A stretch of 39,239 nt of DNA, from contig JADGAN010000047.1 in NCBI GenBank assembly GCA_015231955.1, positions 1 through 39,239 on the forward strand. The letters are read 5' to 3'. A program made the position numbers and the translations under genes. Below are positions 24,166 to 39,239 of the stretch, piece after piece. Source of the DNA: Oligoflexia bacterium. Lineage in GTDB: Bacteria > Bdellovibrionota > Bacteriovoracia > Bacteriovoracales > Bacteriovoracaceae. The number at the start of each line of letters is the position of its first letter. Positions within the stretch are counted from its first letter, which is position 1. Below the pieces are notes generated by a model that had not been told where the DNA came from, searched no databases, and saw only the letters and a list, made by a program, of their open reading frames with translations.

Positions 24166-24261
24166 AAATGATATATTATTTCATTTTCTACTGCTTGACC
24201 ATCGTATCTAAACAAGTTGAAAATAATTGTAAGCGTTCAAATTTTTATGATGGAGAGGTGT

Positions 24262-27200
24262 ATGAGGAAAATTTTAATTTGGTTTTGTGTTACAGTTTCC
24301 ATGCTAATCACTGCCACCGCCTTTGCAGAGTGGGTGAGTGTGGGGCCACAGTATAAAGGGGCAGGAGGCAATGAACCCAACTATTTTAGTAAACATATAA
24401 ATTCCAAATACTCCTCTTCTTTAGACATCTTTATTCAATCACTAGATATTAAAAAGAGTCAATTAAGTAAGTCCGCTAGTTTTAATAAGAGTAAGTATAG
24501 GAAATCAAAATTTATTGAGCTAGCGATGACTACTAAAGGAGATGAGTATCTTGCAAAAGTTGGATATCCTAGACTACCGGTGATTCGAAAATGGATCGCC
24601 TACTCTGGAAAAAAATCGGAGCTTACAGTTACAGTTAAAAAAGGTGTTTCCAATTTAATCCCACTAAAAGAGTATGATGCTGATGCACTATTTCCGGTGC
24701 AAGCATCAGTGGTGAAAATCCCTGGTGCGTATGCAAAAGCGGCATTTTCGATTGATGAAAAATTTTATGCTTCAGATGAGTTTTATCCAAAAAAAGATTA
24801 TGAAATTTTAGATACTATTTCTATTCGAGGGAAAAAATTAGTATTAGTAGAATATTATCCTTTGAAATACAACCCTTACAGGAAAGAACTTTTAGTGGAA
24901 AATGAAGTCTCCATAAGTCTTGATGTTAAAAAATTCACGAGCAAGGTCGAAAAATCTCCAAGTTTTAATCATTTGATTAATAGCATGAGTTTTAATGAGA
25001 GCACTTATAGTCAAGCAACTTCCTCTACATTTGCTCCTGAGAAATTATTGATGATCGTTGGTAGCAAATATGTAAACCTTCCTTTGCTCAAACAGTATAT
25101 CGCAGTAAAAAATGCCATTGGTTATGAGGTGTCAGTTGTAGATGTTCTCGAGATAGGCAACAGCGATATTGCGATTAGAAATTATATCAAATCTCAAGAA
25201 CAACTTCCTACTTATCTTTTAATTATTGGAGACGTTGCTGATGTGGCCACTCACCAAGGTGTGGCAGGTAGTAATAATCAGGCAACTGATCACTTCTATG
25301 CTTGCGTAGATCAAGTAAGCTATGAGAGCGATATTGGCGGAACCGATCTTTTTGTTAGTAGAATTCCTGTGAATAATGAAGGGGAGTTAAATACTATTTT
25401 ACAGAAGATGATTCGTTATCAAGAGATGAATTTTAGTGATAGCAGCTGGATTAAACGCGTCTCTTGGGTGGCCACAGATGATCGTTATCAAGTGGCAGAG
25501 GCCTCTCATAACTATGTGATCGATAATTATACAGCAGGACTTGCTTATCTTGGTAACTTCCCAAGTGCTGCTAGCGCTGGTGGAGATAAACTGTATGCGA
25601 TTACACATCATGCAGCTACCGCCGATTTATCGCGTATGTTTAATGAAGGCAGAGCGATCATTAATTATAGTGGACATGGTGCTCACACCTATTGGGCCGG
25701 TCCAAGCTTTATGCCCGAAAATGTGAGAGCAGTAAATCATCCCGATGCCCGGCCCTTTGTGATCTCCAATGCATGTATTACCAACTCTTTTGCCATGGAG
25801 GGTGATTGCTTTGGTGAGACTTGGCTAAAGCATGCTGCTGGTGCCTTGAGCTTTTGGGGTGCCTCCAATAATAGCTTATGGGATGAGGATGATATTCTAG
25901 AGAGAGCGATGTACGATTCACTCTATCGTGACCATCGTTACTCCATTGGAGAGATTACCACTACTGCTTTAAATAAGGTGTGGCTCTCCTATGCGGGCGC
26001 AGAGAATGCTCCTTATTATATGGAAATTTATAATGTCACCGGTGACTCCTCGATTAAGCTTTTAACCGAGACCCCTAAAAAGCTTGAAGTAAAAGCTCCA
26101 GAAGTCATTATGCTAGGCCTTGACGATTACACTTTAAGTACACATGCTAGTGCGCTGGTGGTGGCCTCTGTGTTTACGAAAAAAGGGGTAAAAAAGTTTT
26201 ATAGTGATCAGCAAGGATTAATACGTTTACGACTTTCAAGCGAGGAATTAGTTGTTGGGGAAAAGTTACAAATTGCCCTTTATGCTCATAGCTATCTACC
26301 TAAAAGCTTACAAATCCCTGTCGTCGTTAATGATATTGCTTACGTGGGATATGCTGGGCATGAAGTATTGGATGGGGAAAATGGCAAGCTTAATCCTGGA
26401 GAAAAAATTGAGCTGAATTTACAATTAAAAAATGTTGGGAGCAAACCCACCGAAGCTTTTAATGCAGTACTCTTTAGCGAAAATCCTAAAGTGAAAGTGC
26501 TTGCAGGAGAGGTCAGTTTTGAAAATCTTGCACCGGAAGAGGTTGGCGTTTCTTTGCAAAAGGCCACTATAGAGGTAGAGGCCGGCAGTGCTAATGCTAC
26601 AGTTGTTCCTCTCAGTTTGCGTTGGTCATTAGTGGGTGGTAGCTCAGGTACCAGTAGCTTCGAAGAAAAGATCGAAGCTCCTGAAGTTAAACTTTTATCA
26701 GCTGAGTTAGTGGAGACTAGAGGTAATGGTAATGGGCGCTTAGATGCAAACGAAGAGGGTGCCTTGATTTTAAAACTAAAAAATAGTGGAAACTATTCTA
26801 TCAAGAAAGAGTTATCGCAAGTAAGGATCGTAAATAATCCAGGGGGAGCGATTCAGATTCCCACTACTACGCTTGCGCTGGATTCCGATTTGGATGTTGG
26901 AGCATCACAAGAGGTAAAGTTTAATTTATCAGTAGGAGCAGTTGCTGATGGTATCAAGGTAACTTTTTTGACTAATGTTGCAATCCTTGGAGATATTTCT
27001 CAGTCCTATAACTTTGCTTCTGCACTGATGATCGGTGGGCCAGTACAACTCAATTTAACAGCTACTGCTCTTCCTAAAACTATTCCTGACAACGATGAGA
27101 AGGGTATTGTCTCTAGCATAGAGGTTCCTCGCTCGATGATATTAACTAAGGTCTCCGTGCATGTAAAAGTAGAGCATACCTATATTGGTGATTTGGCGAT

Positions 27201-27435
27201 TATGCTTAAATCGCCACAGGGAAAAGAAATCACTCTTCATAATCGCAGTGGAAGCTCCGATAATAATATTGATTGCTGGTATGGCGAAGGTTGCAGAAGT
27301 GCTGCTCCACTGGAAGCGCTGATTGGAGAAAATGCCAAAGGGCGTTTTGAACTTTTTGTAAAAGATGCTGCTGCAACCGATGTAGGAACTTTACAACAAT
27401 TTGAACTTAAACTTGAGGGATATTTAAGAGAGTAA
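24262..27435 (+). CDS. Secreted gingipain-type cysteine peptidase (C25) with a P domain
   Basis: 1057 aa. Signal peptide MRKILIWFCVTVSMLITATA cleaves near FA/EW. I chose the ATG at 24262, preceded by GGAGAGG, over the ATG at 24217. An N-terminal prodomain (about 60-250) leads to the catalytic domain (about 260-600): H472 in NYSGHGAHTYW and C505 in SNACITNSFAMEG, 33 residues apart as in RgpB (H211/C244). Ig-like repeats (about 690-910) include RGNGNGRLDANEEGALILKL. The C-terminal 140 residues are a proprotein-convertase P domain (IPDNDEKGIVSSIEVPRSMI, HTYIGDLAIMLKSPQGKEIT). There is no type IX secretion C-terminal sorting domain, so export is probably Sec plus some other route. The P1 preference cannot be read. 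Confidence 0.92.
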   Translation: MRKILIWFCVTVSMLITATAFAEWVSVGPQYKGAGGNEPNYFSKHINSKYSSSLDIFIQSLDIKKSQLSKSASFNKSKYRKSKFIELAMTTKGDEYLAKVGYPRLPVIRKWIAYSGKKSELTVTVKKGVSNLIPLKEYDADALFPVQASVVKIPGAYAKAAFSIDEKFYASDEFYPKKDYEILDTISIRGKKLVLVEYYPLKYNPYRKELLVENEVSISLDVKKFTSKVEKSPSFNHLINSMSFNESTYSQATSSTFAPEKLLMIVGSKYVNLPLLKQYIAVKNAIGYEVSVVDVLEIGNSDIAIRNYIKSQEQLPTYLLIIGDVADVATHQGVAGSNNQATDHFYACVDQVSYESDIGGTDLFVSRIPVNNEGELNTILQKMIRYQEMNFSDSSWIKRVSWVATDDRYQVAEASHNYVIDNYTAGLAYLGNFPSAASAGGDKLYAITHHAATADLSRMFNEGRAIINYSGHGAHTYWAGPSFMPENVRAVNHPDARPFVISNACITNSFAMEGDCFGETWLKHAAGALSFWGASNNSLWDEDDILERAMYDSLYRDHRYSIGEITTTALNKVWLSYAGAENAPYYMEIYNVTGDSSIKLLTETPKKLEVKAPEVIMLGLDDYTLSTHASALVVASVFTKKGVKKFYSDQQGLIRLRLSSEELVVGEKLQIALYAHSYLPKSLQIPVVVNDIAYVGYAGHEVLDGENGKLNPGEKIELNLQLKNVGSKPTEAFNAVLFSENPKVKVLAGEVSFENLAPEEVGVSLQKATIEVEAGSANATVVPLSLRWSLVGGSSGTSSFEEKIEAPEVKLLSAELVETRGNGNGRLDANEEGALILKLKNSGNYSIKKELSQVRIVNNPGGAIQIPTTTLALDSDLDVGASQEVKFNLSVGAVADGIKVTFLTNVAILGDISQSYNFASALMIGGPVQLNLTATALPKTIPDNDEKGIVSSIEVPRSMILTKVSVHVKVEHTYIGDLAIMLKSPQGKEITLHNRSGSSDNNIDCWYGEGCRSAAPLEALIGENAKGRFELFVKDAAATDVGTLQQFELKLEGYLRE

Positions 27436-34794: not shown

Positions 34795-35994
34795 TTAATT
34801 TTTGTCACTTAAGGATTTTTTGTAAAGTTTTTTCAGCTCCTTAAAGAGAGGAGACTTGCTCATATCTCCAGCTTCTCGCGTCCATATAAAATCGGGATAG
34901 TTGGCACTAATCCACCTGCCACCAATAATCTCATCATCTTTATTCAACTCTAAAATGTATTGATACTTGGTGATGTGTCTCATCTTATTTTCAAAGACCC
35001 CATTAACCGGAATGGTGTAAGCTCCAATTTCTCCCGTCCACTCTACATCACTTTCGATGGTCACTTCTTTAACCGTAGCTGCTGCTCGCTTAGCGGGAGC
35101 ACTGGCCGCAGTAATTTTCTCCTGCTTAAGCACTTTGGAGCTGTAACCTTGGACTGGTTGGTTCCAAACCGGCTGATCGGTGGTACGATCGAAGATAAAT
35201 CCGGTACTGCGCTTTCCAATCAAGTTGGCCAAAATAATATGAAAAGTTCCAGCGTTGACATCATTATTTTCACTTTCAGGACGGCCACTAGTGGTAAATG
35301 ATTTATTGTCAAAGGTGTCCTCACAGCGTGTTCCTACAAAACAACGTTTTGCATCGGGATCGCAGGCCTCACCTTGATAGTAGGTTAGCAGTGCTTTAAT
35401 ATCGGAAGAGAAAAATTTAATAACAAGACCATCCTTATTCTCCACACTGGTACAACCTGGTTCTTCAAAATTTAAAGCTGCCGGGGCCCAACCATGACAA
35501 AGACCAAACCACTCACTGCCCTCTGGGTTATCTACAACATCGCGTGTACGTTCAATTTCAGATTTGGTGAGAGTATAATTATAATCGCCACGATAAAGAT
35601 CCCACTTCTCCGCGGGAGATAAACTTTCGATCTCTTGTCGTGACATCTTTTTCAAATCTGCAAGCGAAGTTTTTAGATCACTTGCTTTAACAATTTTTTC
35701 TTTATCACTTAAGCTATTATCACTCCAGCGATTAGCAATTCCGCCTTCATAGGTGGGCCAATAAGTGTCTGTCCAAGGCATCTTATCTTTATCAAGCTTT
35801 CCCGCAAGAGGTAGGTCTGTAAAGTTGCTTTTCAGGTTTTTACCCGTAAACAGTGAGGTAAACCAATGTGCCCCGACTTCAGACATTTTTTGTGGATCGT
35901 TGCGAGCATTCCACTCTTCTGCAAAAAGACTAGAGGATAAGAGTAAAAGCGTGACGGTTAGCAATGACTTTTTTTGCCGGTGAAATTGAAACAT
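34795..35994 (-). CDS. Secreted transglutaminase-elicitor-family protein
   Basis: 399 aa. Signal region KKSLLTVTLLLLSSSLFAEE. The block EWFGLCHGWAPAALNFEEPG holds the catalytic Cys (C166), NDVNAGTFHIILANLIGKRS holds the His (H252) and GFIFDRTTDQPVWNQPV holds the Asp (D269 or D273). From memory this order and the GLCHGWAPAA core are those of TGase_elicitor (PF16683), the family of the oomycete GP42 transglutaminase, with bacterial homologues in marine species. It would cross-link Gln and Lys side chains outside the cell. Extra Cys (C181, C211, C218, C224) fit an exported protein. GGAGG precedes the ATG. It might modify host or prey surface, or the cell's own envelope; not tested. Confidence 0.8.
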   Translation of the reverse strand: MFQFHRQKKSLLTVTLLLLSSSLFAEEWNARNDPQKMSEVGAHWFTSLFTGKNLKSNFTDLPLAGKLDKDKMPWTDTYWPTYEGGIANRWSDNSLSDKEKIVKASDLKTSLADLKKMSRQEIESLSPAEKWDLYRGDYNYTLTKSEIERTRDVVDNPEGSEWFGLCHGWAPAALNFEEPGCTSVENKDGLVIKFFSSDIKALLTYYQGEACDPDAKRCFVGTRCEDTFDNKSFTTSGRPESENNDVNAGTFHIILANLIGKRSTGFIFDRTTDQPVWNQPVQGYSSKVLKQEKITAASAPAKRAAATVKEVTIESDVEWTGEIGAYTIPVNGVFENKMRHITKYQYILELNKDDEIIGGRWISANYPDFIWTREAGDMSKSPLFKELKKLYKKSLSDKN

Positions 35995-36171: not shown

Positions 36172-37017
36172 TTATTGCTCTTCGTATCCGCATCCCTCAC
36201 AATCAGCACATGCTACGACCTCATCATCAGACTCTGCATCTTCATCATAATCGACACCAAGGCCGTTGCAGCTAGTACATACTTTAAGTAGCTTGCTTTC
36301 CATTTTATTATGCTCATCAAACTCATAGAGTTTGATATGCTTTCCGTGGGCCCCAGCAGTGGAGATGATTAACTGGTTTCCATAGATTTCACTGGTGATG
36401 TGGTGAGTGTGCCCACAGAGTGCCAGGGCCACCCTATGTTTTTCTAGGAGCTCTAAAACGCTAGCGGCATTTTCTAGTGGACCGAAATTGCCAACAAAAG
36501 GAAGGTCGAGCGGATTTTTTTGCATCTCTTCGGTGATGTCTCCATCAACATCAAGAAGGTGGTGGTGCATAACAACGATGATAAAGACCTCGGGTGGAAC
36601 CTTGAGTTCTTGCTCCAAAAAGAACATCATCTCTTGATTCAACTCCCCACTATGATTAAAGATCTCTCCCGAAGAGGGTTTTGTACTATCAAGGTAGATA
36701 AGTTTGATCCGCCCTTCCCGCAGTATGCGCGTTCCAAAAGTTTTGCCAAAATAGTTTTGATAGTGGTGGCGCCCAGGAAGATCGTGATTGCCTATCACAA
36801 CACTTAATTCGCTAGAAATTTTATGGCCGCTGGTTAAGGCCCCTTCCTTAATGTAAAGAAAGACCTCCTCTTCTCCACGGTGTGAAATATCGCCTGCAAC
36901 CACAATATGGTTTGCCTTTAATTTTTGCATACAAGTAAAAAGTCCAATGGCCAATGAGTAGTCCTCTGGCTTTTTACTCTCCAAATGCAGGTCTCCAATA
37001 TGTGCTATTCGATACAC
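36172..37017 (-). CDS. Calcineurin-like metallophosphoesterase with C-terminal DnaJ-like zinc ribbon
   Basis: 281 aa. The metal sites of the family are all visible: D9-x-H11 in AHIGDLHLE, D43 in VVAGDISH, N77-H78 in VVIGNHDLPG, a His cluster in VVMHHHLLD, and LCGHTHHITSE. The last 35 residues hold CTSCNGLG (C247, C250) and CADCEGCG (C270, C273), which are two CxxCxGxG repeats as in the DnaJ zinc-finger, so a single zinc knuckle is likely. An acidic stretch (DYDEDAESDDEVV) lies between them. I know no common family with this fusion. No signal peptide, so it acts in the cytosol. The substrate could be a nucleotide or a phosphoprotein. Confidence 0.88.
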   Translation of the reverse strand: MYRIAHIGDLHLESKKPEDYSLAIGLFTCMQKLKANHIVVAGDISHRGEEEVFLYIKEGALTSGHKISSELSVVIGNHDLPGRHHYQNYFGKTFGTRILREGRIKLIYLDSTKPSSGEIFNHSGELNQEMMFFLEQELKVPPEVFIIVVMHHHLLDVDGDITEEMQKNPLDLPFVGNFGPLENAASVLELLEKHRVALALCGHTHHITSEIYGNQLIISTAGAHGKHIKLYEFDEHNKMESKLLKVCTSCNGLGVDYDEDAESDDEVVACADCEGCGYEEQ

Positions 37018-37369
37018 GGTTCTTCCTACTTTATTGTGGGTATAAGAAATAAAATTAAAGCCTTCGATGAGTGCCTTGGTTATTATTTTTTTCCATAAAT
37101 AATTTAAACTAGGAAATGTCGAAATATCAAACTAATTCTCTAGAGAGTGCGCCGTATTAGGTGCCATTCTCCCAAAAGGCGGCCGGCACTTTTCTTCCCA
37201 AAAAGATGTGGCATAAATACTATCTATAGATATTGCCATCTTAGGAGTAATCATTTGTTTTTTTTAAGAATATGTATAGTTTTAGCAGAAACAAATATCA
37301 TCATACTTTACAATGATATACTACCTACAAGACCAGTTCCTCTGTTACAAAACAAAAAATGGAGAATGT
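37018..37369. other. Long intergenic region with a nested palindrome
   Basis: 352 bases between two divergent genes. It holds a perfect 12-base palindrome, TATCTATAGATA at 37221-37232, flanked by partly matching arms GATGTGGCA (37205-37213) and TGCCATC (37234-37240). A second imperfect stem lies at 37146-37154 with 37180-37190, followed by four T. A plus-strand terminator there would have no gene to end. Promoters for the gene at 37370 and for the metallophosphoesterase must be here, but no clear -35/-10 pair could be placed. Confidence 0.5.
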
Positions 37370-38494
37370 ATGAATAAAAAATATTGTCAAAAAAAATCAA
37401 TGAAAAAAGTCGCAAAAACGATCCATCCCTTGCTCTTCTTCTTCATCATTATTATTGCAATGGGTACACTCTCACCCGCTTATAGCTTTGTAGGCAATAT
37501 CTATGTTGTCCCAATGAAGGATAAATTCCTGATCCTACTTGGTGACTATCATAACTTGTTCAGCAAAGCTACTAATGACAAACAGATGCACTTATTTATG
37601 AATGAAGTTTTTAGACCATTGCTTAGCAAAGCAAGAGGTCTGCAAATTCTTAATGAAGATATTACCATTAAATGTCATCTTGAGAGTGAGTTTAATAATA
37701 AATCCTTGGCGATTGAGAAAACTAGTGACTTCTCCTATGATTGCACCTCTACCCCATTCACTATGGCCATAACAAAAGATCCGGACCACACTGGATTTAT
37801 TGTTCGCACTCTTTCTAAGAGTACAGCAGAACAACCTTTAGATATGACAACATGGATGGGGATTCAACTGACTAGTCAATTGCTAAAAATGGAGAAGGAT
37901 CAATTTACTTACCATAGTGTGGATCCTCGGGGGGTTTTTACTCAGCTTGAAATTTTTGACCGTATTGCTAGTTGTACAGAGGAGACAGTTGCTCCATTTA
38001 CAACTCAGTACTTTGCTCTAGAAACTTTATCAAAAGCATTAGAACAAAAGATAACACGGCCTCAAGATGATAGAGACTTGCTTAAAGAAGTTGATGCGAC
38101 CAGGAGAATTTCATTGAGTAAAAGTCGTGTTTTTAATTTTATTATGCAAAGGAGACAATCGGATCAAGAAAAAAGAAAGTACGTCAAAGATAACTTAATA
38201 GAAAGTGATTACCTGAACAATCTCCTAGAAGTTGAAGTATTGCTAAGAAGTGCGAGTGCAAGTTCTCCAGAGGTAACGATGGCCGTTATTGGAGAAGCGC
38301 ATGCAGAGAAGGTTCTCTCTGCCTTAAAACATCTTGGTTTCTTCCCAAGTCTAAGCATCTCATGTGATGAGATTTTAAAAATCAAGAAAACAGGAACCAC
38401 TAAAAGCTATGTACCCATTTCCCCAGAGGCACAATTTAAATGCGAGCAATTAATGGAAGAGACATTTAAGACCCTTGTCTCTCAATTGAAATAA
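37370..38494 (+). CDS. Secreted or membrane-anchored protein of unknown function
   Basis: 374 aa from the ATG at 37370 (GGAG six bases upstream); a shorter start, MKKVAKT at 37400, is possible and the frame is open to 37313. The hydrophobic segment PLLFFFIIIIAMGTLS then PAYS is a signal peptide or anchor. Near the N terminus is FLILLGDYHNLFSKA and near the C terminus MAVIGEAHAEKVLSALKHLG. The spacing of two G-x-x-H blocks, the second followed by an L..L..LGF helix, recalls TraB/GumN/Tiki-type proteins, but the middle (a helical stretch of about 200 residues) does not match anything I know. Three or more Cys may pair outside. I do not assign a function. Confidence 0.75.
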   Translation: MNKKYCQKKSMKKVAKTIHPLLFFFIIIIAMGTLSPAYSFVGNIYVVPMKDKFLILLGDYHNLFSKATNDKQMHLFMNEVFRPLLSKARGLQILNEDITIKCHLESEFNNKSLAIEKTSDFSYDCTSTPFTMAITKDPDHTGFIVRTLSKSTAEQPLDMTTWMGIQLTSQLLKMEKDQFTYHSVDPRGVFTQLEIFDRIASCTEETVAPFTTQYFALETLSKALEQKITRPQDDRDLLKEVDATRRISLSKSRVFNFIMQRRQSDQEKRKYVKDNLIESDYLNNLLEVEVLLRSASASSPEVTMAVIGEAHAEKVLSALKHLGFFPSLSISCDEILKIKKTGTTKSYVPISPEAQFKCEQLMEETFKTLVSQLK

Positions 38495-38804: not shown

Positions 38805-39239
38805 CTATTTTCCACCGAGATAACTGTTCATCTTCTCACTTCCGTAGGTATGAATGGCGTGAAGTAGGTTATGGCCTCTACATAGATACCTGAGGTTTTG
38901 GACAGAGTGTGCTCCCCCACTCGCGTAGGCGTGCCGATGATCGAATTCCATATGGTGAACCTCAGTGCACCTCTCATTAGTGATGGGAGAAATGTATTCG
39001 CAACGTCCCTGCGCCCTTGCCATCACCTCCGCTCGAACTGATTTTGGAATATACCGTGAGTGTGGACTCTCCACGCTCTTAGGAGCGCTTGTCTCTGGCG
39101 CTGGAGTTGTCGGTTTGGTGAGCTCTTGTGCTTTTTCTTGCAGCAAAAGTTCCAGCAGTTCTCCGTCCTGATAGTTCCCCATTTTTCCTTTTAACTCTTG
39201 TAGTAACTTCCATGCTTTCTCACTCACTTCAATTTTATA
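38805..39239 (-). CDS. HNH endonuclease, C-terminal part (5' end outside the window)
   Basis: 144 visible residues, with the frame open to the window edge, so the true start is beyond 39239; the GTG at 39225-39227 is probably internal. The first part, VSEKAWKLLQELKGKMGNYQ, is the helical segment that precedes the nuclease in this protein type. A Pro/Thr-rich linker (residues about 42-60) follows, then RYIPKSVRAEVMARAQGRCE, then CTEVHHMEFDHRHAYASGG and LRYLCRGHNLLHAIHTYG, the full HNH motif with its Cys pair. Such proteins are often repeated in Bdellovibrio-like genomes and may be mobile. Nicking or cutting of DNA is the likely activity. Confidence 0.85.
   Translation of the reverse strand, partial: YKIEVSEKAWKLLQELKGKMGNYQDGELLELLLQEKAQELTKPTTPAPETSAPKSVESPHSRYIPKSVRAEVMARAQGRCEYISPITNERCTEVHHMEFDHRHAYASGGAHSVQNLRYLCRGHNLLHAIHTYGSEKMNSYLGGK

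Follow-up and report, generated by a model that had tools for sequence, protein, structure and literature searches.

The window is the whole contig, 39,239 nucleotides in length, and its sequence ends just past an HNH-like gene. Close to this end is a reading frame of 281 aa in which a metallophosphoesterase (MPE) core is followed by a short tail with two CxxCxGxG motifs. The features of the locus are as follows.

34795-35994, same strand as the MPE gene and downstream of it, 177 nt away: transglutaminase-elicitor protein (PF16683, E 9e-49)
36172-37017, minus strand: whole MPE reading frame, 281 aa, with a GTG start at 37017 and a TAA stop at 36172-36174
36187-36210, minus strand: second CxxCxGxG motif of the translation, CADCEGCG, residues 270-277
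36211-36255, minus strand: acidic stretch VDYDEDAESDDEVVA, residues 255-269, with 8 D/E and 0 K/R in 15 residues
36256-36279, minus strand: first CxxCxGxG motif of the translation, CTSCNGLG, residues 247-254
36280-37017, minus strand: MPE core, residues 1-246, matched by PF00149 and PF12850, both above their cut-offs
36403-36414, minus strand: GHTH motif, residues 202-205, with G202, H203 and H205 invariant in both MPE alignments
36562-36567, minus strand: H151-H152, invariant in both MPE alignments
36781-36792, minus strand: GNHD motif, residues 76-79, invariant in both MPE alignments
36889-36894, minus strand: G42-D43 motif, invariant in both MPE alignments
36985-36993, minus strand: D9-x-H11 metal ligands, invariant in both MPE alignments
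37024-37027: AGGA, separated from the GTG start by a 6-nt gap
37313-38494, upstream of the MPE gene and divergent from it: 393-aa protein with no family assigned by Pfam or NCBIfam
38805-39227, at the contig end: HNH-like protein whose residues 59-120 weakly resemble IscB, below cut-off

The rest of the contig carries metabolic, transport, peptidase and two-component genes, and no link of the MPE to a pathway was found among the contig genes. No metal-handling gene was recognised among the transglutaminase-elicitor, 393-aa and HNH-like neighbours. The G+C content at the MPE locus is unremarkable, and promoter and terminator scans around it gave results at chance level. The transglutaminase-elicitor protein has an N-terminus that by eye resembles a signal peptide, and positions 24217-27435 encode a 1072-aa gingipain-type C25 peptidase with a propeptide and a proprotein-convertase P-domain.

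The phosphoesterase core

The original prediction of an intact calcineurin-like core is borne out. The Pfam Metallophos family PF00149 matches residues 3-206 with E 4.1e-14 and a score of 53.9 bits (cut-off 21.5), and PF12850 also matches above its cut-off (E 1.1e-7). The MPE catalytic set is complete, i.e. DxH, GD, GNH(D/E), H and GHxH are all present. Two alignments with distant MPEs show no variation at D9, H11, D43, N77, H78, H151, H203 and H205. The first is with eight proteins (seven plasmid-borne and one from the same family as the reading frame) and the second with six from the phylum of the reading frame; identity to the aligned proteins is 20-31%. With its full set of catalytic residues, the protein is predicted to be a catalytically competent di-metal phosphodiesterase or phosphatase, and from family knowledge the core presumably carries out two-metal hydrolysis of phosphomono- or diesters. 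It is probably cytosolic, as no signal peptide is seen by eye, and its substrates may be phosphodiesters.

Placement within the MPEs is less precise. The best NCBIfam matches are all to other MPEs and all below cut-off: the DS9_1 anti-phage phosphoesterase (NF053862) scores 37.4 against 420 bits, with its best stretch at residues 103-219, SpdA (NF050112) 35.3 against an equivalog cut-off of 400, and the 3',5'-cAMP phosphodiesterase CpdA (NF008359) 27.6 against an equivalog cut-off of 225. The best sequence match in the PDB is Rv0805, at E 0.003. Since all the subfamily scores fall far short of their cut-offs and Rv0805 is the nearest solved relative at that E-value, a substrate cannot be named from sequence. 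The CpdA/Rv0805/GpdQ-like MPEs, which we take to be class III cyclic-nucleotide phosphodiesterases, share with the window protein the fold family as detected by HMM and the full catalytic residue set. They differ in that the aligned examples, at the identities given above, have no CxxCxGxG tail, and the window protein is below the cut-offs of all the NCBIfam subfamilies.

The C-terminal tail

The tail comprises residues 247-281. The two CxxCxGxG repeats of the original prediction, with C247/C250 and C270/C273, are present, and there is a fifth cysteine at position 276. However, the acidic linker that was placed ahead of the repeats is not there: the first knuckle joins the end of the core directly (...SKLLKV-C247), so no linker precedes the motif pair, and the acidic run (255-269) is between the motifs. 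The tail as a whole has 12 acidic residues in 35 and no basic ones.

No further CxxCxGxG sequence occurs anywhere in the window when all six frames (78,474 residues) are read. Among 200,000 shuffles of the protein at least one motif appeared in 209, and two motifs in none; the presence of both in the tail is not given by chance. The four cysteines are arranged as a zinc ribbon. Most likely they hold one structural zinc, and the tail would best be called a generic C4 zinc ribbon, a common and widespread type.

Structure prediction adds little to this description. AlphaFold2, run on single sequences, gave a mean pLDDT of 37.7 for the full-length protein and 53.7 for the tail alone, and a fold search with the tail model returned 0 PDB matches. 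In PHROGs, the tail weakly matches phrog_12902 (E 0.0016) and phrog_12574 (E 0.0026), small families of phage proteins whose function is unknown, and these matches are slightly better than those to DnaJ and UvrA profiles.

Relatives and distribution of the architecture

A tblastn search with the whole protein found only the own genome among the genomes of 58 relatives (E <= 0.001). At the family level, 8 of 129 genomes match (E <= 0.01), and at the phylum level 9 of 368 (E <= 1e-4), the own genome being counted in both cases. None of the eight other phylum matches has a CxxCxGxG motif. Metallophos matches in the own genome number 12, the window protein included; the other 11 have no CxxCxGxG and no detectable phmmer relationship to it. 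One family-level match (G090) has neither GNHD nor CxxCxGxG. Three further family-level matches, G135, G115:C60 and G118 (query 178-277), are weak and seemed at first to extend over the tail; their reading frames are without CxxCxGxG and read as other proteins, and the matches were rejected as due to chance.

Mobile elements and viruses were also searched. By tblastn there was no whole-protein match in phages at E <= 0.01, and at E <= 10 none of six phage records covered 80% of the query. In plasmids 56 records matched at E <= 0.01, every one with less than 60% identity. The tail alone, with the low-complexity filter on, had no match in phages and plasmids at E <= 10. In single-sequence scans, peptide matches picked out 22 stretches in contigs of the species genomes and two stretches in viral contigs, with no relative in either. 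An alignment-based scan of viral contigs returned 277 stretches and one relative (L129), which aligns over residues 1-79 only; it is SbcD-like by eye and without a tail. In this 3'-open reading frame (L129, 1501-3249) an SbcD/Mre11-like phosphoesterase is followed in frame by the apparent start of a Rad50/SbcC-type ATPase (NRAGKSS); with these names, given by eye, it is a nuclease-ATPase fusion.

The relatives examined are distant (20-31% where aligned) and not orthologs, and no ortholog was found in the genome, viral, phage and plasmid collections searched. Thus, there is no conservation that supports any role for the tail. Absence of the tail from all relatives had been proposed at the outset as a refutation of the prediction. 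The tail is indeed absent from all those examined, but these are the distant proteins just described and not orthologs.

The architecture itself was sought by pattern. A GHxH followed by 35-45 residues and both CxxCxGxG motifs is found in one of 368 phylum genomes, its own. In larger collections a codon-restricted pattern was used. It prescribes the codon of the His that precedes Thr (CAC in species genomes, CAC and CAT in viral contigs) as well as the spacings, so that fusions with other codons or spacing are missed. The CAC version recovers the window, and from the species genomes (a collection described as holding 84,980 species) it gave 35 stretches with no MPE among them; in three of the 35 (L043, L052, L060) HxH and both motifs share one open frame, and none of these is an MPE. 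In viral contigs the CAC and CAT patterns together gave 13 stretches (9 + 4), again with no MPE, and the in-frame form is seen in four of these 13 (L017, L018, L019, L065). A GNHDxPG scan of viral contigs found 54 stretches with 33 MPE-like reading frames, many of them longer than the window protein; the best has a phmmer E of 1.1e-5 as computed within that small set. In the parts inspected, any CxxC after GNHD is seen in 1 of the 33 and a CxxCxGxG pair in none.

A literature search found no metallophosphoesterase fused to a CXXCXGXG or zinc ribbon, and the available part of one article (PMC7824862) describes no fusion of this kind. The original prediction treated the architecture as unfamiliar and asked how far it spreads phylogenetically. 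Within the collections searched it is unshared, and the tail seems to have been added to an ordinary enzyme as a one-off.

Resemblance to UvrA, DnaJ and anti-TRAP

The DnaJ central domain (PF00684) matches residues 247-278 below threshold, scoring 14.4 bits where the cut-off is 32.7 (16.6 bits in a genome-wide scan). UvrA zinc fingers score higher on the same profile, 26.6 bits for a UvrA piece and 23.9 for the UvrA of the own genome, these being the two pieces scanned that define a range of 24-27 bits. A sub-threshold hit on this profile should therefore not be taken for a DnaJ-like domain. The tail and the UvrA fingers both have a spacing of 19 from the second cysteine to the third, and DnaJ repeats 2-3 have one of 18. 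Against profiles built from 7 UvrA and 30 DnaJ stretches the tail scores 10.8 and 10.1 bits, respectively. Both scores are weak, and the UvrA alignment is a single continuous domain with a high composition bias (9.2).

The UvrA zinc finger (C-x2-C-x-G-x-G ... C-x2-C-x-G) thus has the same cysteine spacing as the tail and aligns with it continuously. However, it has a hydrophobic core, IEMxFLxD, where the tail is acidic, and it is found inside an ABC ATPase, whereas the tail is terminal and not in a UvrA ABC ATPase. The DnaJ domain shares the CxxCxGxG motif, but it has four repeats and two zinc sites, which are absent from the two-repeat tail. Ancestry of the tail from DnaJ or from UvrA is not shown for either by these comparisons.

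A third comparison is with anti-TRAP, a bacterial protein with a single DnaJ-like zinc module. In the part of the published account available (PMC2896485), it has two CXXCXGXG motifs, depends on zinc both to form oligomers and to function, and makes trimer-trimer contacts in which the zinc domains are involved. From this description, and not from sequence, anti-TRAP may be likened to the tail as a single CXXCXGXG pair outside DnaJ. Anti-TRAP is small, stands alone and has no enzyme domain, whereas in the window the pair is on an enzyme.

Possible roles of the tail

The reading we prefer, in which we have about even confidence, is that the protein is a cytosolic phosphodiesterase with a di-metal centre, broadly of the CpdA/Rv0805 kind, and that it carries a C4 zinc ribbon that probably serves assembly or partner docking. 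An MPE core would have gained the 35-residue ribbon at its very end, and the acidic loop between the knuckles would most likely form a surface for self-association or partner docking that places or assembles the enzyme. The Pfam and PDB matches of the core, the invariant catalytic residues, the non-chance motifs and the alignment to UvrA fingers at equal spacing are all in its favour. Self-association or protein docking is favoured over nucleic-acid binding because of the anti-TRAP analogy, as far as the available part of that account goes (PMC2896485), and the strongly acidic tail, whose charge makes direct nucleic-acid binding unlikely. The RNA partner suggested originally thus loses ground. 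The missing ortholog, the weak HMM scores of the tail, the NCBIfam scores far below cut-off and the low pLDDT values speak against the preferred reading.

It is possible, if unlikely, that the tail is a nearly neutral, lineage-specific addition without strong function, acquired for example by capture from a small zinc-ribbon protein, and that the enzyme acts like any tailless MPE. Its absence from the relatives examined and the restriction of the architecture pattern to a single genome would fit, and the acidic stretch resembles low-complexity filler. Yet both motifs are intact, with all four cysteines and four glycines, and drift alone would, given time, erode them.

The tail might instead be a metal or redox sensor, in which the C4 set, the fifth cysteine and the acidic loop bind zinc or iron or become oxidised, and so tune or feed the di-metal active site. 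That a metal-dependent enzyme has five cysteines and 12 acidic residues in a 35-residue tail speaks for such a sensor, and that no metal-handling neighbour was recognised speaks against it; it is improbable. Also decidedly improbable is a distinct MPE branch with the acidic C4 ribbon as a regulatory module, i.e. a docking or nucleic-acid-mimicking knob, by analogy with what anti-TRAP is for TRAP, or a metal sensor in control of a signalling phosphodiesterase. The window protein would then be the first of this branch to be seen.

Should the tail serve to dock or regulate the enzyme, the protein would illustrate on a small scale how a common phosphoesterase core is retargeted by generic zinc ribbons. 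It should be pointed out that a single unshared protein combining two common modules offers a modest general lesson; it is unusual, and not yet important.

That the tail is a zinc module of the DnaJ type and directs the phosphatase to RNA or unfolded proteins is highly improbable, for besides the motifs and the sub-threshold PF00684 match there is a single knuckle pair instead of four repeats, no Pfam J-domain match in the reading frame, a score under that of UvrA fingers, a cysteine spacing off by one and an acidic tail that speaks against RNA binding. Accordingly, of the DnaJ-like zinc ribbon first proposed, the fusion to a CxxCxGxG C4 tail stands and the DnaJ specificity does not.

A tandem CxxCxGxG scan of the 129 family genomes gave matches in 125, mostly DnaJ by eye, and 11 different-looking ones were extracted. 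Seven of these (L160-L166) are not DnaJ; two were checked and have UvrA as best match, and the remaining five are alike by eye. Weak DnaJ central-domain hits can thus be UvrA-type fingers (UvrA L160-L166 and L184; 24-27 bits in the two pieces scanned). The other four (L167-L170) do not resemble UvrA. Three of these, from G068:C136 (L167), G089:C11 (L168) and G087:C16 (L170), are extra DnaJ-like proteins that some genomes of the family have in addition to their main DnaJ; they have YEVLG J-domain starts, some with unusual zinc spacing, and L169 aligns to them by eye.
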